Below, one piece after another: positions 21,271 to 32,221 of a stretch of 64,000 nucleotides of DNA. The notes below the pieces were generated by a model. The model saw nothing but the letters and a program-made list of their open reading frames with translations. It ran no database searches and was not told where the DNA came from. Origin of the DNA: Streptacidiphilus pinicola (GTDB lineage Bacteria; Actinomycetota; Actinomycetes; Streptomycetales; Streptomycetaceae). Each line of letters starts with the position of its first letter. Position 1 is the first letter of the stretch. The stretch lies in contig NZ_QKYN01000034.1 of NCBI RefSeq assembly GCF_003258295.1, forward strand, positions 29,270 through 93,269, in the 5' to 3' direction. The position numbers were made by a program, and so were the translations under genes.

Positions 21271-24554
<3,284 letters not shown>

Positions 24555-25433
24555 GTGGACGTTCGTACGAATACCGCCGAGGTCCGACGCCGTGCCGACC
24601 TGCGTGAGTTCCTGATGAGCCGACGCGCCCGGGTCAGCCCCGGCGACGCCGGGCTGCCCGACGGCGGCGCGCGGCGCCGGACGCCGGGCCTGCGCCGCGA
24701 GGAGGTGGCGGTGCTCGCCGGGGTGGGCGTCAGCTGGTACCAGTGGCTGGAGCAGGGCCGCGACATCACCGTCTCCGGCCAGGTGCTCGACTCCGTCTCG
24801 CGGGTGCTGAAGCTGGACGAGCCGGAGCGGCGTCACCTCTACGTGCTGGCCGGCCTCAATCCGCCGCTGCTCGCCGTCCCGCCGGTGCAGGCCCCGGTGA
24901 GCGAGTCGATCCAGCGGCTCATCGACTCGTGGATGCCGCTCCCGGCCAACGTGATCGACCGCTACTGGAACAACGTCGCCTACAACACCGCCGCCACGGC
25001 CGTCTTCGACTTCGACGAGCGCTGCAGCAACTGCCTCTTCTCCTTCTTCCACAACACCCTCTACCGTGACCGCCACGTCGGTTGGGACCACGACGCGTCG
25101 CTGGTCGTGGCCGAGTACCGGGCCGCGGCGGCGGAGTTCCCCGGCGACGAGGGCTTCGCGGCGATCGTGGACGAGCTGAGCGCCACCAGCGAGCTCTTCG
25201 CCGAGCTCTGGGCCCGCGGCGACGTCCGGCCGCCCGGCACCCGGCCCAAGCACGTCGAGCACCCGCTCGTGGGCGAGCTGCGGTTCGAGAGCACGCAGCT
25301 GCGCATCCCGGACCGCCCCGACCTGACCGTCGTCCTGCACAACGCCGCGCCGGGCACGGACACCATGCGCAAGCTGGAGTGGCTCGCCTCCCCGGAGGGC
25401 CGCCGCTCCACGTTCCGTCCCATCGCCGGCTGA
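24555..25433 (+). CDS. XRE-family regulator with MmyB-like ligand-binding domain
   Basis: 292 residues from the GTG at 24555. The N-terminal HTH_31 domain contains RRRTPGLRREEVAVLAGVGVSWYQWLEQGRDI (~40-70), the hallmark of this actinobacterial family. The C-terminal MmyB-like PAS-type domain (~110-285) includes NVIDRYWNNVAYN and ends with the usual hydrophobic strand (LTVVLHNAAPGTDT). Such regulators usually control a divergent oxidoreductase or exporter gene; here the divergent partner is the broken SDR. The paralogue at 54486 has the same architecture. Confidence 0.92.
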   Translation: MDVRTNTAEVRRRADLREFLMSRRARVSPGDAGLPDGGARRRTPGLRREEVAVLAGVGVSWYQWLEQGRDITVSGQVLDSVSRVLKLDEPERRHLYVLAGLNPPLLAVPPVQAPVSESIQRLIDSWMPLPANVIDRYWNNVAYNTAATAVFDFDERCSNCLFSFFHNTLYRDRHVGWDHDASLVVAEYRAAAAEFPGDEGFAAIVDELSATSELFAELWARGDVRPPGTRPKHVEHPLVGELRFESTQLRIPDRPDLTVVLHNAAPGTDTMRKLEWLASPEGRRSTFRPIAG

Positions 25434-25470
25434 TCCGTGCGCGCCGCAGCGTGCTGCGGCCGATCCGTGC
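25430..25470 (+). promoter_or_regulatory. GATCCGTGC direct-repeat pair with 30-bp period, upstream of first M20 gene
   Basis: GATCCGTGC occurs at 25432-25440 and 25462-25470, exactly 30 bp apart, and the second copy is preceded by GGCC. The same pair with the same 30-bp period occurs at 29395-29433 between the Lrp/AsnC and MFS genes. The first copy overlaps the stop of the upstream regulator gene. The pair ends 75 bp before the preferred M20 start. It is a candidate operator for a regulator shared by the two loci. Confidence 0.55.
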
Positions 25471-25545
25471 AGGGGCGAGCGCGCGGGAGGGGCCGGGATG
25501 AGCATGGGAGCGTTCCCGCTCACCGCCCCCTCCGAGGAGACGCCG

Positions 25546-26745
25546 ATGTCGCCCACTCTTGCCGAGTCCGCTGTGGAGTTGTTGCCGGAGTTGGTCGCGT
25601 TGCGGCGGTCGATTCACGAGGAGCCGGAGATCGGTCTGGAGTTGCCGTTGACGCAGGCCAAGGTGGTGGCGGCGTTGGAGGGGCTGGGGTTGGAGGTCTC
25701 GCTCGGTGAGAAGTTGAGCAGTGTGACGGCGGTGTTGCGGGGTGGGCGTCCTGGGCCTGCGGTGTTGTTGCGTGGTGATATGGACGCGTTGCCGGTGCAG
25801 GAGACGAGTGGGTTGCCGTTCGCGTCGCGGATCGCGGGGGCGATGCATGCGTGTGGGCATGATCTGCATGTGGCGGGGTTGGTGGGTGCGGCGCGGTTGC
25901 TGGCGGAGCGTCGGGAGGAGCTGGCCGGGTCGGTCGTGTTCATGTTCCAGCCCGGCGAGGAGGGCTGCGGCGGCGCCCAACTGATGGTCGACGAGGGCGT
26001 CCTGGAGGCCGCCGGTACGAAGGCCGTCGCCGCCTACGCCCTGCACGTCGCCGCCGCGCTGCTGCCGGCCGGCTGGGTCGCCTCCCGTCCCGGTCCGGTG
26101 ATGGCCGCCTCCGACACCCTGCAGGTCACCTTCCGCGGCCGCGGCGGCCACGGCTCCATGCCGCACGCCGCGCTCGACCCGCTGCCCGCCGCGTGCGAGG
26201 CGGTCACCGCGCTGCAGACCATGGTCACCCGGCGCTTCGACGCCTTCGACCCGGTGGTCGTCACCGTCGGCACCTTCCACGCGGGCAGCGTGGAGAACGT
26301 CATCGCGGAGACCGCCACCTTCGGGGCGACCATCCGTTCCTTCTCCGTCGAGGCCCGGGAGAAGGTCGCGCAGGAGGCGCTCCGCGTCGTCCGCGGGATC
26401 GGCGAGGCGCACGGCCTCACCGTGGAGGCGGAGATCGTCGGCGGCTACCCCGTGACGGTCAACGACCCGGTCGAGTCCGCGTACGCCGCGGGCGTCGTCA
26501 CCGAGGTCCTGGGAGCGGGCCGCTACGTCGAGATGCCGCACGCCGTGGCCGGCTCCGAGGACTTCGGCGTGCTCGACAAGCTCGTCCCCTCCGCGTACCT
26601 GATGCTCGGCGCGACCCCGCCGGACCGCGACCCCTCCACCGCGCCGTACAACCACGCGCCCGAGGCCGCCTTCGAGGACTCGGTCCTGGGCGACGCCGCA
26701 GCGCTGCTCGCGGGCCTCGCCCTCGCCCGCTTGGCCAGGGCCTAG
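25546..26745 (+). CDS. M20-family metallo-amidohydrolase (copy 1)
   Basis: 399 residues from the ATG at 25546, chosen because GAGGAG lies six bases upstream and because the paralogue starts at the equivalent position. A longer frame from 25498 also has a ribosome-binding-like sequence. Catalytic and metal residues are present: GDMDALP, HACGHDLH, PGEEGCGG, a dimerisation domain (GRGGHGSMPHAALDP) and APYNHAPEAAF near the end. Family members cleave N-acyl or amide bonds of amino acids (hippurate or IAA-amino-acid hydrolase type). Bases 25553-25976 are 99% identical to the start of the second copy and use TTG leucine codons heavily, whereas the rest uses CTG/CTC and diverges. Confidence 0.92.
   Translation: MSPTLAESAVELLPELVALRRSIHEEPEIGLELPLTQAKVVAALEGLGLEVSLGEKLSSVTAVLRGGRPGPAVLLRGDMDALPVQETSGLPFASRIAGAMHACGHDLHVAGLVGAARLLAERREELAGSVVFMFQPGEEGCGGAQLMVDEGVLEAAGTKAVAAYALHVAAALLPAGWVASRPGPVMAASDTLQVTFRGRGGHGSMPHAALDPLPAACEAVTALQTMVTRRFDAFDPVVVTVGTFHAGSVENVIAETATFGATIRSFSVEAREKVAQEALRVVRGIGEAHGLTVEAEIVGGYPVTVNDPVESAYAAGVVTEVLGAGRYVEMPHAVAGSEDFGVLDKLVPSAYLMLGATPPDRDPSTAPYNHAPEAAFEDSVLGDAAALLAGLALARLARA
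25553..25976 (+). repeat. 424-bp near-identical 5' block shared by the two M20 genes (copy 1)
   Basis: This block matches 31029-31452 with about four substitutions and no indels. It has visibly lower GC and many TTG, GTG and GGT codons compared with the flanking coding sequence. The downstream parts of the two genes are clearly more divergent, apart from a second identical island at 26194-26255 / 31670-31731. The pattern indicates recent gene conversion or joint acquisition of the block. Confidence 0.85.
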
Positions 26746-26748
26746 GGC

Positions 26749-27636
26749 CTAGTCCTCCAGGCGGACGGCGCGGCGGATGGTGACGTCACCGAGCTTGGTG
26801 CCGGCGCGCAGCTCGACCCTGTCGACCGGCTCATCGGCCTCGGGGGCGGCGGCGGCGCCGAGCTCGTTGTAGACGCGGCCGACCCCGGTGCTCAGCTCCA
26901 GCCACGCCGCGGTGCCCTCGCGGACGCCGACCTCGACGCTGCCGTTCTTGGAGGTCGCGGAGACCTTGCCGCGGACGACCTCGCCGATCCGGACCACGCC
27001 GTTGGAGCTGGCGGCGGTGATGTCGGAGAGGGCACGGTCGACGGTGACGGCTCCGTTGGAGCACTTGACCGTCGCCGGCCCGGTGATGGCACCGATGTGC
27101 ACCTTGCCGTTGTCGTTGGAGACGTCGGCGGTGCCGTCCAGCGTGCCCAGCTGGATGTCGCCGGAGCCGCTGTGCACCTGCGTCGGGCCGCTGACGCTCG
27201 TGACGGAGATCTGGCCGACGCCGCCGCGGACGTTGAGCGGGCCGGTCTCGGTGAGCCGGACGCAGCCGAGTCCGGTCTTGAGCTGGACGGTGCCCAGCGC
27301 GCCGTCGGCGTGGAAGTCGCCGAGGTCGGCCTCGCCGCGCACCTCGGAGTCGGTGGGCAGCGCGATCACCACGTCGATGGACTCCGGTCGCTTGCTGCTC
27401 CATTCGACGAAGCGCTTCAGCGGCTTCCTGGAGACGATGTTGAGCGTGCGCGTGGTCTCGTCGTACTCGACGCGGGTGTTCTCGACGGCCTTGGCGTCGG
27501 CGGGCTTGCCCGGGTCGCTCGGCTTGATCTCGACGACCGTGTCGGTCCGGTCGGAGACGGAGAAGCGGACGTCGGCGACGTAGAGGTCGAGCACGACGGA
27601 GATCGGCGACGGGGTGGCGAACTTCGACTCGGACAT
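26749..27636 (-). CDS. DUF4097-family beta-strand repeat protein (cytoplasmic form)
   Basis: 295 residues without signal peptide or membrane segment. Repeated short strands of the type GDIQLGTLDGTADVSNDNGKVHIGAITG and SNGAVTVDRALSDITAASSNGVVRIGEVV form a predicted single-stranded right-handed beta-helix, the DUF4097 fold. Its function is unknown. It follows the ribbon-helix-helix gene by 70 bp on the same strand, so the two probably form one operon. A second DUF4097 gene at 51429, membrane-anchored, follows a two-component system. Confidence 0.85.
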   Translation of the reverse strand: MSESKFATPSPISVVLDLYVADVRFSVSDRTDTVVEIKPSDPGKPADAKAVENTRVEYDETTRTLNIVSRKPLKRFVEWSSKRPESIDVVIALPTDSEVRGEADLGDFHADGALGTVQLKTGLGCVRLTETGPLNVRGGVGQISVTSVSGPTQVHSGSGDIQLGTLDGTADVSNDNGKVHIGAITGPATVKCSNGAVTVDRALSDITAASSNGVVRIGEVVRGKVSATSKNGSVEVGVREGTAAWLELSTGVGRVYNELGAAAAPEADEPVDRVELRAGTKLGDVTIRRAVRLED

Positions 27637-27706
27637 CTCGGGTTCCTTAGGCAGGCGAGGACAGGACGCCCTCGGACGGTGCTCGGTGCTCAGCTGTGCG
27701 CGGTGC

Positions 27707-28237
27707 TCAGCGGGCCCAGCCGGTGTAGCGCTGGCCGATCGTCAGATCGGGCTTCTGCGCGGGCGCGGGCCGGGCGGAGCTGCGGCCTTCGGCGGCGAGG
27801 CCGGCCGCTGCCGCGCGGACGATCCAGGCGTTGACGGAGAGTCCGCCGGAGGAGGCGGCGTCCTCGATCAGGGCCTTGAGGTTGGCGGGCAGCCGCAGGT
27901 TGATCCGGACCATGGCGGCGTCGTCGCCCTCGGCGAAGGGCAGCCGGACATCCATCGGCGCGGGGGCGGCCTCGGCGACCGGCGCGGCGGGCGCGGGCGG
28001 CGGCGTCACCGCGAAGCCGGCGGACCCGCCCCGCAGCCGGACGTCCACGGAGCCGGGCGCGAGCTCGGCGGAGATCTCCTCGGCGGCGGCCGAGAGTGCC
28101 TCCAGCAGGGTGAGCCGGACCGCGGCGTCCAGCGGCTGCAGCAGCCGGCCGGCCAGCGCGCGGGCCTCCTCGCCGCCGACCTCGGCCGCGGTGGTCAGCT
28201 CGCGGCGGAGCTGGTCGACATAAGGGGTGAGTTCCAT
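27707..28237 (-). CDS. Ribbon-helix-helix (HicB/Arc-like) DNA-binding protein
   Basis: 176 residues from the ATG at 28237. A helical N-terminal part (~1-60) and a Pro/Ala-rich linker lead to a clear RHH motif near residues 108-146 (MVRINLRLPANLKALIEDAA, then GLSVNAWIVRAA), as in HicB-like antitoxins, and then a basic tail. No HicA-type toxin is adjacent, so a toxin-antitoxin role is not supported. A role as repressor of its own operon with the downstream DUF4097 gene is more likely. Tandem TGGTGCCA repeats overlap the promoter. Confidence 0.8.
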   Translation of the reverse strand: MELTPYVDQLRRELTTAAEVGGEEARALAGRLLQPLDAAVRLTLLEALSAAAEEISAELAPGSVDVRLRGGSAGFAVTPPPAPAAPVAEAAPAPMDVRLPFAEGDDAAMVRINLRLPANLKALIEDAASSGGLSVNAWIVRAAAAGLAAEGRSSARPAPAQKPDLTIGQRYTGWAR

Positions 28238-28247
28238 GGCTCTAATG

Positions 28248-28266
28248 TGGCACCACTTTGGCACCA
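28248..28266. promoter_or_regulatory. Tandem TGGTGCCA operator candidate of the ribbon-helix-helix gene
   Basis: Two TGGCACCA sites (TGGTGCCA on the gene strand) lie at 28248-28255 and 28259-28266 with an 11-bp period, 11 bp upstream of the start codon. Ribbon-helix-helix repressors commonly bind such short tandem repeats about one helical turn apart. A TTGCAT -35-like hexamer lies just upstream, so binding would block transcription. Confidence 0.5.
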
Positions 28267-28341
28267 ATGCAAGTGGCTCTGGCTCACTTTGGCGTAAGAG
28301 CAGCTCAGGCCCGGTCAGTGCGGTCAGGCCGGGTTGTGCGG

Positions 28342-29376
28342 TCAGGCCAGGCTCAGGTTCTGCCACGGGTCCAACGGCACGTGGCCGATCCGGCGGCCCT
28401 CCGCGTCGAGGAGATGGCCGACCAGCTTCGTGGTCCGCAGGATCACCTGGCGCGCCGTCACCCGTGCCGCTGGGAACAGCGAACCCAGCTGCGCCTCGAT
28501 CCGCCGCCCGTCCGCGACCTGATGCGTCATCACCGCCACCACCACGTTCGCCGTCGCACCCGCCACCACCCCGCACATCCGCACCGCGGGGAGCTCGACC
28601 AGCCAGTGCGTCGCCGCGTCCAGCTCGCGGACCGGGACGTCGAGCCAGAGCCAGGTGCTGACCGAGTGCCCGTTCAGCCGCGGTGAGGCGTCGCAGCGCA
28701 GCACCAGGCGGCCGCTGCGGCGCAGCTCCTCGACCCGGCGGCGCACCGTCGTCGCCGGCAGGCCGGTGCGCTCGGCGAGTTCGGCGAACGGCATGCGGCC
28801 GTCCGCCCCCAGCGCCTGCAGCAGGGCCCGGTCGTCGAGCGCCCGTCGCAGCGCGCCGCCGCGCGCCGGGACCGTCTCGACGGACGGGCCGAGCCCCGCG
28901 CCGATCGCCTCCTGCTGGGAGCGGTCCAGCGCGCCCTCCCGCCAGCGGCTGCCCTCGCGCAGGGTGCGCTCGACGAACGCCGTGCGGGTGCGCAGCACCC
29001 CGGGCACCTTTCCGATGCGGTCCAGCACGTAGGCGGTGACCTGGCCCGGCTCCAGCGCGGCGACGGTCAGCATGACGTCGGCCTCGCCCGTGACGACCTC
29101 GACCGTCGGTGTCTGCGGGTCGGCCGCCAGCGTCTGCGCGACCGCCAGCACGGCGTCGGCCCGGCAGTCCACCGCGACCAGTGCGGTCAGACCGACGCCC
29201 ATCCGCTCCGCGGAGGGGTAGCTGGTGACCCACGCGTCGCCGTCCGACGTCAGCCGTGCCCAGCGGCGCGAGAGCGTCGCCGGATCCACGCCCAGCGGGC
29301 CGGCGAGCCGGGACCAGGGCGCGCGGGGGGCCACACGCAGCGCGTCCACGAGGGCGAGATCCAGTTCGTCGATCAC
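28342..29376 (-). CDS. Lrp/AsnC-family regulator with two HTH-AsnC modules
   Basis: 344 residues with a GTG start, about twice the usual Lrp/AsnC length. Two AsnC-type HTH motifs (residues ~4-45, LDLALVDALRVAPRAPWSRLAGPLGVDPATLSRRW; ~180-225, ALLQALGADGRMPFAELAERTG and TTVRRRVEELRRSG) alternate with two RAM-like ligand domains. Such duplicated regulators sense amino acids or small ligands. It is divergent from an MFS gene followed by an M20 gene, its likely targets. The GATCCGTGC repeats in the shared intergenic region are probable binding sites. Confidence 0.9.
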   Translation of the reverse strand: MIDELDLALVDALRVAPRAPWSRLAGPLGVDPATLSRRWARLTSDGDAWVTSYPSAERMGVGLTALVAVDCRADAVLAVAQTLAADPQTPTVEVVTGEADVMLTVAALEPGQVTAYVLDRIGKVPGVLRTRTAFVERTLREGSRWREGALDRSQQEAIGAGLGPSVETVPARGGALRRALDDRALLQALGADGRMPFAELAERTGLPATTVRRRVEELRRSGRLVLRCDASPRLNGHSVSTWLWLDVPVRELDAATHWLVELPAVRMCGVVAGATANVVVAVMTHQVADGRRIEAQLGSLFPAARVTARQVILRTTKLVGHLLDAEGRRIGHVPLDPWQNLSLA

Positions 29377-29394
29377 GCGACGCCCTCCTTGGCC

Positions 29395-29433
29395 GATCCG
29401 TGCGCGCGGGGGCGCGCTCTTGCCGATCCGTGC
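29395..29433 (+). promoter_or_regulatory. GATCCGTGC direct-repeat pair with 30-bp period, Lrp/AsnC-MFS intergenic region
   Basis: Two copies of GCCGATCCGTGC (cores at 29395-29403 and 29425-29433) are exactly 30 bp apart, about three helical turns. They begin 19 bp upstream of the regulator start. The arrangement and the adjoining GCGC sequence match the pair at 25432-25470. Lrp/AsnC proteins often bind several helically phased sites, so this is a candidate autoregulatory operator. Confidence 0.6.
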
Positions 29434-29569
29434 GGCGGCGGCCCGACGCGGCCCAGGTTAGCGATCCTTTCGCCCACTCGGGCCTTTCGCCCGCGTGAGC
29501 GGCTGCGTTTCCCTGCTCGTGCACTTCTCGTGCACTCCCGCTGCCTTCCCTGGAACAGAAGGGCCGCCC

Positions 29570-30985
29570 ATGCCCCGTCCCCCCGCCGCCCGGCCGCTGA
29601 CCGGAGCGGGCGCCCTGGTCGGTCTGCTCGTCCTCGTCGAGTTCTTCAGCGGCACCATCCAGGGCTCCTTCCCGGTGCTGCTGCCGGATCTCGCCCGGTC
29701 ACTGCACTTCGACGCGGGCGCACAGGCGCTGGTGCTCGGGGTGAACTTCCTCGTCGCCGGCGTGACCGTGCCGCTCGGCTCGCGCCTGGGTGACCTGCTG
29801 GGCCACCGCCGCCTGTTGCTGGTCACGCTCGCGCTGACCAGCCTCGGGTTCGCGCTCTCGGCGACCGCGACCGCGCTGCCGCTGCTGCTCGTCGGACAGG
29901 CCCTGGCCGGGGTGCTCGCCTGCTGGCTGCCGCTGGAGTTCGCGCTGCTGCGCGACCAGTTGGGCGAGGAGCGCGGCGGACGCGCCGTCGGCCTGCTGGT
30001 CGGCGCGTTGACGCTGGGGACCGTCGCGGGCGCCGTCGTTCGCCCCGGGCTGTGGATCCTCGCCGCGCTGCCCGCCGTCTCCCTCACGGCGGTGTGGGTG
30101 TTCGCGCCGGAGTCCGTGACCCGGGCCGTCGGACGCTTCGACCGGCGCGGCGCGGCCCTGCTCGCGACCGGCCTCGGGCTGCTCTTCGGTGGCCTCGGCA
30201 CCGCCGGCAAGTCCGGCGGCGTGTCGCTGACGGCCGGCCTGCTGCTCGGCGCGGCCGCCATGCTCGCGCTCTTCGTCCGGCAGGAACTACGCTGCCCCAC
30301 CCCGACGGTGGACGTGCGGATGCTGGCGCGCCGCCCCACCGCCCCCGTCTTCGGCCTCAGCCTGCTGCTCGGCTTCGCCCTCTACGGCGCCCAGTCGCCC
30401 ACCCTCTCCTTCCAGGCCGCCAAGCCCGCCGAGGACGGCTACGGCCTCGGCGCGGACTCGCGGCTGCTCGGCCTGCTCTCGCTGCCCGCCGTCCTCGGCG
30501 CGATGCTCGGCGCGCTCGTCGCCGACCGCCTGGCCCGCCGTTTCGGCGCCCGCGCCCTGCTGGCCTTCGGCTTCGCCATGAGCGCCCTCGGCTACGCGGT
30601 GATCGCCGCGAGCCACGGCAGCGCCGCCGCCTTCGTCGCCCCCAACGCGGTGGCCGGCTTCGGCGCGGGCCTCGGCCTCAGCCTGCTGCCGGGCCTGCTG
30701 ATGCGCCGTCTGCCCGCGGACCGGACGGGCATCGGCACAGGCGTCTACAACACCCTGAAGACGCTCGCGGGCGCGGCGGCGGGCGCCGTCGGCGCTGCCG
30801 TCCTGGACGCGGTGCTGCTGCGCCCCGGCGTCCCCTCGGCGGCCGCCTACGTCACGATCTGGACCGCCTGTGCCCTGCTCTGCGCCCTCGGCGTGCCCGT
30901 CGCCCTGGCCCTGCGTGCGACTCCTGACGGCGCGACTCCTGACACCAGAGAGGGCATGCGGCTAGCCTCGGAACAGCCGGTGTGA
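29570..30985 (+). CDS. MFS transporter, DHA-like, next to Lrp/AsnC regulator
   Basis: 471 residues from the ATG at 29570 with GAAGG upstream. A GTG at 29495 would add 25 residues of poor coding character. About 12-14 hydrophobic segments are visible, with motif A-like GSRLGDLLGHRRLLLV. It probably moves amino acids, peptides or related amides, inferred only from its setting: it is divergent from a duplicated Lrp/AsnC regulator and ends 33 bp before an M20 amidohydrolase gene, most likely in one operon with it. Confidence 0.87.
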   Translation: MPRPPAARPLTGAGALVGLLVLVEFFSGTIQGSFPVLLPDLARSLHFDAGAQALVLGVNFLVAGVTVPLGSRLGDLLGHRRLLLVTLALTSLGFALSATATALPLLLVGQALAGVLACWLPLEFALLRDQLGEERGGRAVGLLVGALTLGTVAGAVVRPGLWILAALPAVSLTAVWVFAPESVTRAVGRFDRRGAALLATGLGLLFGGLGTAGKSGGVSLTAGLLLGAAAMLALFVRQELRCPTPTVDVRMLARRPTAPVFGLSLLLGFALYGAQSPTLSFQAAKPAEDGYGLGADSRLLGLLSLPAVLGAMLGALVADRLARRFGARALLAFGFAMSALGYAVIAASHGSAAAFVAPNAVAGFGAGLGLSLLPGLLMRRLPADRTGIGTGVYNTLKTLAGAAAGAVGAAVLDAVLLRPGVPSAAAYVTIWTACALLCALGVPVALALRATPDGATPDTREGMRLASEQPV

Positions 30986-31018: not shown

Positions 31019-32221
31019 ATGGTTGCAGCCACTCTTGCCGAGTCCGCTGTGCAGTTGTTGCCGGAGTTGGTCGCGTTGCGGCGGTCGATTCACGAGGAGC
31101 CGGAGATCGGTCTGGAGTTGCCGTTGACGCAGGCCAAGGTGGTGGCGGCGTTGGAGGGGCTGGGGTTGGAGGTCTCGCTCGGTGAGAAGTTGAGCAGTGT
31201 GACGGCGGTGTTGCGGGGTGGGCGTCCTGGGCCTGCGGTGTTGTTGCGTGGTGATATGGATGCGTTGCCGGTGCAGGAGACGAGTGGGTTGCCGTTCGCG
31301 TCGCGGATCGCGGGGGCGATGCACGCGTGTGGGCATGATCTGCATGTGGCGGGGTTGGTGGGTGCGGCGCGGTTGCTGGTGGAGCGTCGGGAGGAGCTGG
31401 CCGGGTCGGTCGTGTTCATGTTCCAGCCCGGCGAGGAGGGCTGCGGCGGCGCGAAGGTCATGATCGACGAGGGCCTGCTGGATGCCGCCGGCGTCGAGGT
31501 CGTCGCCGCCTACGGCATCCACGTCACCAGCGGCCTGCTGCCCGGCGGTGTCGTCTCCGGCCGCCCCGGCCCGGCGATGGCCGCCGCCGACACCCTCCAC
31601 GTCACCCTGCGCGGCCGTGGCGGCCACGGCTCCGCCCCGCACGCCGCGCTCGACCCGATCCCGGCCCTGTGCGAGGCGGTCACCGCGCTGCAGACCATGG
31701 TCACCCGGCGCTTCGACGCCTTCGACCCGGTCGTGGTGACGGTCGGCCACATCCACGGCGGCACGATCAACAACGTCATCCCCGACGACGCCTCCTTCGA
31801 GGCCACCATCCGCTCCTTCTCGGCGGAGGCGCGCGCCCGCGCGGAGCAGGAGACGCTGCGCGTCGTGCGCGGCGTCGCCGCGGCCCACGGCCTGGAGATC
31901 GACGCGCGCTACGAGCGCCTCTACCCGGTCACCCGCAACGACGAGACGGAGGCCGCGTTCGCGGCCGCCACCGCCCGCGACCTCCTCGGCGAGGACCGCT
32001 TCCGCCCCATGCCCCAGCCCCTGGCCGGCGCGGAGGACTTCTCCTACGTCTGCGAGCGCGTCCCCTCGGCCTACTTCTTCCTCGGCGCCTGCGCCCCCGA
32101 CCGCGACCCGGCCACCGCCCCGTACAACCACAGCCCGGAGGCCTACTTCGACGACTCCGTCCTCGCGGACGGCGCGTCGCTCCTCGCGGAGCTGGCGATC
32201 CGGCGCCTGGCACGCGGGTGA
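31019..32221 (+). CDS. M20-family metallo-amidohydrolase (copy 2)
   Basis: 400 residues with the ATG at 31019 and an AGGAGG site nearby. It has the same catalytic set as copy 1: GDMDALP, HACGHDLH, PGEEGCGG, GRGGHGSAPHAALDP, EDFSYV and APYNHSPEAYF. The first 424 coding bases are nearly identical to copy 1 and TTG-rich, while the remainder differs at many positions. It is predicted to hydrolyse N-acyl or amide-linked amino acids imported by the MFS protein encoded 33 bp upstream. The substrate is not known. Confidence 0.92.
   Translation: MVAATLAESAVQLLPELVALRRSIHEEPEIGLELPLTQAKVVAALEGLGLEVSLGEKLSSVTAVLRGGRPGPAVLLRGDMDALPVQETSGLPFASRIAGAMHACGHDLHVAGLVGAARLLVERREELAGSVVFMFQPGEEGCGGAKVMIDEGLLDAAGVEVVAAYGIHVTSGLLPGGVVSGRPGPAMAAADTLHVTLRGRGGHGSAPHAALDPIPALCEAVTALQTMVTRRFDAFDPVVVTVGHIHGGTINNVIPDDASFEATIRSFSAEARARAEQETLRVVRGVAAAHGLEIDARYERLYPVTRNDETEAAFAAATARDLLGEDRFRPMPQPLAGAEDFSYVCERVPSAYFFLGACAPDRDPATAPYNHSPEAYFDDSVLADGASLLAELAIRRLARG
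31029..31452 (+). repeat. 424-bp near-identical 5' block shared by the two M20 genes (copy 2)
   Basis: This is the partner of 25553-25976, aligned without gaps at a constant offset of 5476 bp and in direct orientation. Recombination between the two blocks would delete or duplicate the ~5.5 kb between them (DUF4097, ribbon-helix-helix, Lrp/AsnC and MFS genes). Confidence 0.85.

Follow-up and report, generated by a model that had tools for sequence, protein, structure and literature searches.

Which protein reads the two pairs of an identical 9-nt word that stand in front of two amidohydrolase transcription units in Streptacidiphilus pinicola? The pairs lie in a 64,000-nt stretch of this genome (contig NZ_QKYN01000034.1, positions 29,270 to 93,269; hereafter the window), in which GATCCGTGC occurs twice between the gene of an MmyB-like regulator and an M20-family amidohydrolase gene (M20a), and twice more between the gene of a Lrp/AsnC-type protein with two helix-turn-helix (HTH) units (lrp) and an operon encoding a transporter of the major facilitator superfamily (MFS) and a second amidohydrolase (M20b). 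A first-pass annotation had proposed that a single Lrp/AsnC regulator controls both hydrolases and the transporter. We propose that the GATCCGTGC pairs are operators of the adjacent double-HTH Lrp, which is predicted to activate M20a and the MFS-M20b operon, and we give this reading, which was built from sequence, a probability of about 0.7; that the pairs are sites of this Lrp, whichever the direction of control, appears very probable. The shared regulon is strongly supported because footprinting across related loci, the co-occurrence of operator and regulator and the presence of related operators beside paralogous regulators all point to it, whereas import by the transporter, as proposed in the annotation, is not supported.

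The four copies of GATCCGTGC, all on the + strand, are the only ones in the window (Table 1), and both their positions and the start-to-start distance of 30 bp within each pair proved exact. Shuffling predicted 1.21 copies, and 2 out of 100 shuffled sequences reached four. The regions around the pairs (25428-25477 and 29391-29440) are 80% identical over 50 nt. Single copies of the 9-mer are common in the 8.43-Mb host genome, which contains 111 of them (52 + 59), yet exact pairs at 30 bp are confined to these two places in the window, when about 0.0007 exact pairs would be expected genome wide from the single copies; this ruled out that GATCCGTGC is merely a common repeat. The genome-wide count favours the regulon, since the pair is not frequent elsewhere without a link to M20 or Lrp genes. 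A control with the reversed pattern gave no exact match in the host genome. Allowing 2-3 mismatches, 26 further pairs were found in the host genome compared to 3 in the control; some of the 26, among which the surroundings of locus L005 and the printed matches were inspected, may be weak extra targets. A longer consensus at 31-bp spacing had no match in the host genome at up to 3 mismatches.

Searched for in named genomes, the regulator had matches at 20 loci: full-length orthologues (58-90% identity) at 15, and a match to one HTH only at the other 5. The full-length orthologues belong to Streptacidiphilus, Kitasatospora, Actinospica, Actinacidiphila and Streptomyces. In related loci, both the lrp-MFS promoter and the M20 gene nearby carry the site GATYCKTGC as a direct repeat, spaced 30 or 31 bp and oriented toward the structural gene. 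Loci identical to others (L017, L023, L124, L125 and L129) were counted once. In front of M20a, as labelled by best hit, a pair with at most 2 mismatches was present in 23 of 26 rows, the misses being L022, L029 and L122. This count omits three rows that bear an M20b label while occupying the M20a position (L112, L126 and L122, with 0, 2 and 3 mismatches, respectively), and also L018, where the M20 start is masked by N and the pair is intact; the M20a-labelled row of L122 stands in the M20b position. Allowing up to 2 mismatches, 21 of 29 rows had a pair spaced 30 or 31 bp at the lrp start, namely each of the 20 loci that retain a divergent MFS gene and one of the nine that do not (Fisher P = 2e-6, uncorrected for shared ancestry); this sole MFS-less locus, L118, carries a derived version. 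M20b starts located behind MFS had no pair in any of four loci. Derived from 37 pairs, a fuller site reads TGGCNGATYCKTGCRCG in copy 1 and GGCNGATYCGTGCR in copy 2, with variable flanks and spacer. The site is not palindromic, its best dyad score over the 74 site copies being 0.48 on a scale from 0 to 1.

Operator and regulator also go together across genomes. We examined 394 genomes of the family, scoring the best 5 candidates in each, and found an orthologue of at least 59% identity in 29 of them, clearly separated from the paralogues, which reach 48% at most; in G013 and G104 the orthologue is split into two pieces, and these genomes bring the number to 31. A member of the fused two-HTH subfamily was present in 115 of the 394 (E 1e-40). 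A relaxed form of the pair, with 21-22 bases between copies, was found in 32 of the 394 genomes and its reversed pattern in none. In 8 of the 32 (G003, G033, G074, G170, G197, G298, G325 and G374), the only match was a 15-bp array with a middle copy, and these were set aside after inspection, G325 and G374 being judged on the printed match. As a result, a non-tandem pair was found in 22 of the 31 genomes with the Lrp orthologue and in 2 of the 363 without it (Fisher P = 9e-27, uncorrected for shared ancestry), leaving 361 genomes with neither; keeping the eight array genomes, the counts are 23/31 and 9/363. In both pair-bearing genomes without an orthologue, G002 and G110, the regulator is deleted or broken. 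G002 (L112, 11758-13915) retains one M20 gene behind the operator, lrp and MFS being gone, and this gene is chimeric, its first 75 bp being most like M20a and its later part like the M20b of a relative; most likely, lrp and MFS were lost through recombination between the converted 5′ ends of the two M20 genes described below. In G110, lrp has been reduced to fragments next to M20a that contain no open frame of 150 codons.

Other matches to the word were seen in these genomes. A non-tandem GATCCGTGC pair at 30 bp in L013 (G004:C8:196246-196284) is unexplained; it lies at the end of an open reading frame (ORF) that by eye resembles an acetyltransferase, its 3-kb locus has no M20 or Lrp match, and G004 also carries a true pair. 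In addition, GATCCGTGC or GATTCGTGC forms arrays of 15-bp period with different spacers in unrelated places (L012, L098, L101, L103, L109, L110 and L111). These arrays were rejected as further operators, given that the middle copy is present and that four of the seven inspected loci (L012, L098, L101 and L103) are clearly inside an ORF; the other three are not clearly so.

Related operators accompany paralogous regulators. From the upper part of the hit list we took 60 gene starts of paralogous double-HTH Lrps (36-48% identity), 39 of them non-redundant. GATYCNTGC pairs with up to 2 mismatches were located near 15 of the 60 starts (3 at 30 bp and 12 at 31 bp), or 10 of the 39 after removal of near-duplicates. 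Any other spacing gave a mean of 0.38 and a maximum of 4, and 100 shuffles gave at most 1/60. At 3 mismatches, 27 of the 60 starts (15/39 non-redundant) had a pair; at this tolerance the 31-bp spacing exceeds the rest (19), but the 30-bp spacing (9) does no better than the best of the others (9). Among the non-redundant paralogue loci, 15/39 are directly divergent to an M20 gene across a gap of 123-234 bp, 5/39 have an M20 gene within 3 kb and 19/39 have none. The host genome itself contains a second double-HTH Lrp (L052, G000:C19), 39% identical and divergent to another M20 gene, at whose start GATCCCTGT and GATTCATTC lie 31 bp apart by hand count.

The regulator is a protein of 344 aa in which Pfam recognizes two AsnC-type HTH stretches and an AsnC ligand domain (PF13404, 82.4 bits, cut-off 27; PF01037, 39.1 bits, cut-off 25). 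An AlphaFold model built with 16 sequences has the order HTH-RAM-HTH-RAM at a mean pLDDT of 68.4, and because this confidence is moderate the relative placement of the two halves was not used as evidence. The family layout of one HTH and one RAM unit per chain (~15 kDa) does not describe this protein, which is a fused variant of the Lrp/AsnC family.

How would such a protein act on its operators? Of 26 M20 promoter rows, 24 (all but L126 and L128) have a hexamer matching BASSAT, in most cases GAGGAT or GAGCAT, at 28-30 bases past the end of copy 2. If this hexamer is the -10 element, copy 2 would occupy about -50 to -42 and copy 1 -80 to -72. No -35 consensus is evident by eye at the M20a promoters, and the pair ends where a -35 would begin, therefore in an activator-type layout. 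Past copy 2, between lrp and MFS, most loci share a conserved block like CCAGGTTAGCSATCCTT; the TAACCT that it carries on the regulator strand is likely the regulator's -10, which would place both copies of operator B in the regulator leader. The block also contains a degenerate third site; where the distance to copy 2 was counted by hand, it is ~38-39 bp. We suggest that a single chain with two different HTH and two RAM units may act as a built-in pseudo-dimer that would read one asymmetric site of ~14 bp (GGCNGATYCKTGCR), and that two of these proteins would bind in head-to-tail order on a single DNA face, three turns apart. At M20a, they would cover about -80 to -42 beside a promoter with a weak -10, and the regulator, bound to an amino acid or acyl-amino acid ligand, could recruit the polymerase; the same complex would serve MFS-M20b at the second promoter. 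At operator B, it could also hold down the regulator's own gene, because the sites lie downstream of the likely -10 of lrp.

The same site evidence would fit a double-HTH Lrp that binds the pairs and represses M20a and MFS-M20b until a ligand releases it, and the position of the regulator-side sites downstream of the likely -10 also agrees with repression. We regard this alternative as unlikely, given that the M20a pair stops short of the -10-like hexamer, in an activator position and not over the start, at promoters where no -35 consensus was seen. Because activation and repression exclude each other, the probability given to each is limited.

That the pairs are read by the Lrp at all could be questioned in favour of the MmyB-like XRE regulator, whose gene adjoins operator A in the window, its stop codon overlapping the site, and is found next to it in several other Streptacidiphilus loci as well. 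This attribution is highly improbable: the MmyB-like gene was not found in L020-L031 (Kitasatospora, Actinospica, Actinacidiphila and Streptomyces), loci that keep the sites at one promoter at least, the repeats of the paralogous systems sit beside Lrp starts, and MltR-type proteins are expected, in the excerpted text of PMC3406030, to need a palindrome. Even less credit can be given to the idea that the double-HTH protein is an enzyme and something else binds the repeats, an idea raised by Foldseek, which ranked first NirDL, a siroheme decarboxylase that likewise has a fused double Lrp fold, and after it many single Lrp/AsnC proteins. The AsnC-type HTH was found in all 29 members examined, 22 orthologues and 7 paralogues. 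When these were aligned, helix DPATLSRRWARL of the first HTH was nearly unchanged among the orthologues, and its residues T34, R37, R38 and W39 were invariant in 29/29; the second recognition helix is well conserved, less strictly than the first. Moreover, the NirDL-like HTH model PF22451 scored 20.4, below its cut-off of 27, and operator and protein co-occur. Least credible of all is that the repeats lack a regulatory role, having arisen as a minisatellite or through the M20 duplication, as might be suspected from the 15-bp-period arrays of GATCCGTGC in other genomes, often in reading frames, and from the converted 5′ ends shared by the two M20 genes, given that no middle copy exists here, that the M20b starts behind MFS lack the pair, that Kitasatospora loci without a second M20 match carry both operators, and that site and spacing are kept while the flanks diverge, the conservation of the 30/31-bp spacing across genera disfavouring a neutral repeat.

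Several points weigh against activation by the double-HTH Lrp as we propose it. Many loci are close relatives, several of the Kitasatospora loci being near-identical, so that the counts and P values are not independent. The BASSAT form was chosen after viewing the sequences, and rows with up to 3 mismatches were admitted. The M20a site is missing from L029, a Streptomyces locus (7 mismatches), and is weak in L022 (3); in G164, regulator and M20 are on different contigs and the lrp side has one copy only. Nine of the 31 genomes with the Lrp orthologue lack a non-tandem strict pair, and eight of these (all but G056) were examined, seven having a pair at 1-2 mismatches and G013 only one at 3. Among the paralogues, 45/60 are without a pair at 2 mismatches, and the code is therefore partial or divergent there. 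What has been conserved is not autoregulation, as the pair on the lrp side decays in loci that lack MFS. Finally, in Kitasatospora, copy 1 lies directly beside the ATG of the regulator and overlaps its likely ribosome-binding site, which could by itself explain why this one copy is conserved; no such additional cause applies to copy 2 or to the copies at M20a.

Regarding the structural genes, M20a and M20b reach 301.3 and 315.6 bits with TIGR01891 (cut-off 153.75), and both are homologous over most of their length to YxeP, ILL2 and N-alpha-acyl-glutamine aminoacylase (PDB 1ysj, 1xmb, 6slf). The HACGHD and QPxEE motifs, which we take to be those of the metal site, are aligned in M20b with 1ysj, 1xmb, 4ewt and 6slf, and M20a contains HACGHD and QPGEE. 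This homology makes an acyl-amino acid or amide a plausible substrate. The MFS protein matches MFS_1 (PF07690) and, in the PDB, resembles a "drug transporter". Of the named models, the DHA2 export model TIGR00711 (75.2 bits, cut-off 230.2) and a uridine transporter fit it best, both below their curated cut-offs, and uptake, as first annotated, is not supported over export. We also observed that the 5′ stretches of M20a and M20b (~25560-25920 and 31033-31395; ~300 bp, four 75-column windows) are 97-100% identical within the genome, compared to 86-92% between M20a and the M20a of S. melanogenes. The same pattern occurs in two other species and, more weakly, in two more diverged ones. Judged from these alignments, the pattern is one of gene conversion between the two 5′ stretches.

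Table 1. Positions in the window of the predicted operators, promoter elements and genes of the double-HTH Lrp locus.
Feature	Position	Strand	Remarks
Operator A copy 1, GATCCGTGC	25432..25440	+	Upstream of M20a; overlaps stop codon of MmyB-like gene
Operator A copy 2, GATCCGTGC	25462..25470	+	30 bp after copy 1
-10-like hexamer GAGCAT, predicted M20a promoter	25500..25505	+	29 bases from operator copy 2; putative promoter role
M20a, M20-family amidohydrolase (TIGR01891)	25546..26745	+	Most likely start, by homology to M20b and upstream GAGGAG
Double-HTH Lrp/AsnC-type regulator, HTH-RAM-HTH-RAM, predicted binder	28342..29376	-	
Operator B copy 1	29395..29403	+	18 bp upstream of regulator start codon
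Operator B copy 2	29425..29433	+	30 bp after copy 1
Conserved block CCAGGTTAGCGATCCTTTCGCCCA	29453..29476	.	TAACCT on regulator strand and degenerate third GATCCTTTC; putative role
MFS transporter	29570..30985	+	Divergent from regulator
M20b, second M20-family amidohydrolase	31019..32221	+	Downstream of MFS; own start without operator

The gene set is as the first-pass annotation had described it, with an M20 gene, a protein with two AsnC-type HTH units, an MFS gene and a second M20 gene (Table 1). Between M20a and lrp (26749-28237) lie a DUF4097 gene and a gene for a 176-aa protein without Pfam match, for which tblastn (E 1e-8) found no homologue in the related loci mapped. Further upstream, at ~23640-24289 on the minus strand, an SDR-like gene beside a DHA2-type MFS gene (families assigned by eye) is read in two frames, owing to either a frameshift or a sequencing error.

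The proposed system can be compared with described ones. Lrp-family sites are reported, in the excerpted text of PMC2995911, as imperfect inverted repeats of 13-17 bp clustered on one DNA face with two or three helical turns from centre to centre, and as a rule they are degenerate and difficult to predict; the suggestion that three-turn phasing suits a Lrp/AsnC protein thus agrees with documented spacings. Local regulators of this family share with the system described here the HTH and RAM domains and, as excerpts of PMC11033246 report, the control of neighbouring genes, whereas here there are two HTH and two RAM units per chain and asymmetric direct repeats instead of inverted ones. DoeX, an AsnC/Lrp protein for ectoine degradation in Halomonas elongata, is likewise encoded beside a deacetylase and binds 46 nt just upstream of its catabolic operon; unlike the regulator here, it is a single unit of 158 aa, its neighbour DoeB is described as related to M14 and not M20, and the excerpted text describes no repeat operator (PMC3187862). 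TobR and other actinomycete Lrp/AsnC proteins also control neighbouring genes directly, but TobR has one HTH and one ligand domain and belongs to an antibiotic cluster, with no twin direct repeat described in the excerpted text (PMC11033246). NirDL (PDB 4ch7), the best structural match, shares the fused double Lrp fold but is an enzyme. Full-text searches of the open-access literature, including one for the 9-mer itself with 20 of its 169 matches listed, brought up no paper on an operator of a double-HTH Lrp protein; PMC12565409 had no bearing on the matter. Phasing and local control are shared with known systems; the fused double unit and the asymmetric direct-repeat site set the present one apart.

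We consider it slightly better than an even bet that the fused double-HTH Lrps of Streptomycetaceae and their kin form a class of regulators that are built-in heterodimers, read asymmetric GATYCNTGC-type sites placed head to tail at 30/31 bp instead of the palindromic Lrp box, and are coupled as a class to M20 genes. The family offers a natural experiment: loci without the transporter have mostly lost the adjoining operator, and in one genome recombination between the two M20 genes seems to have removed both the regulator and the transporter. If the proposal is true, regulons of double-HTH Lrps would be readable from the genome sequence alone. Because a strict, phased, asymmetric site is tied to the fused subfamily and to a recurring M20 neighbourhood, at times with MFS, many uncharacterised regulons in antibiotic-producing actinobacteria become directly testable.

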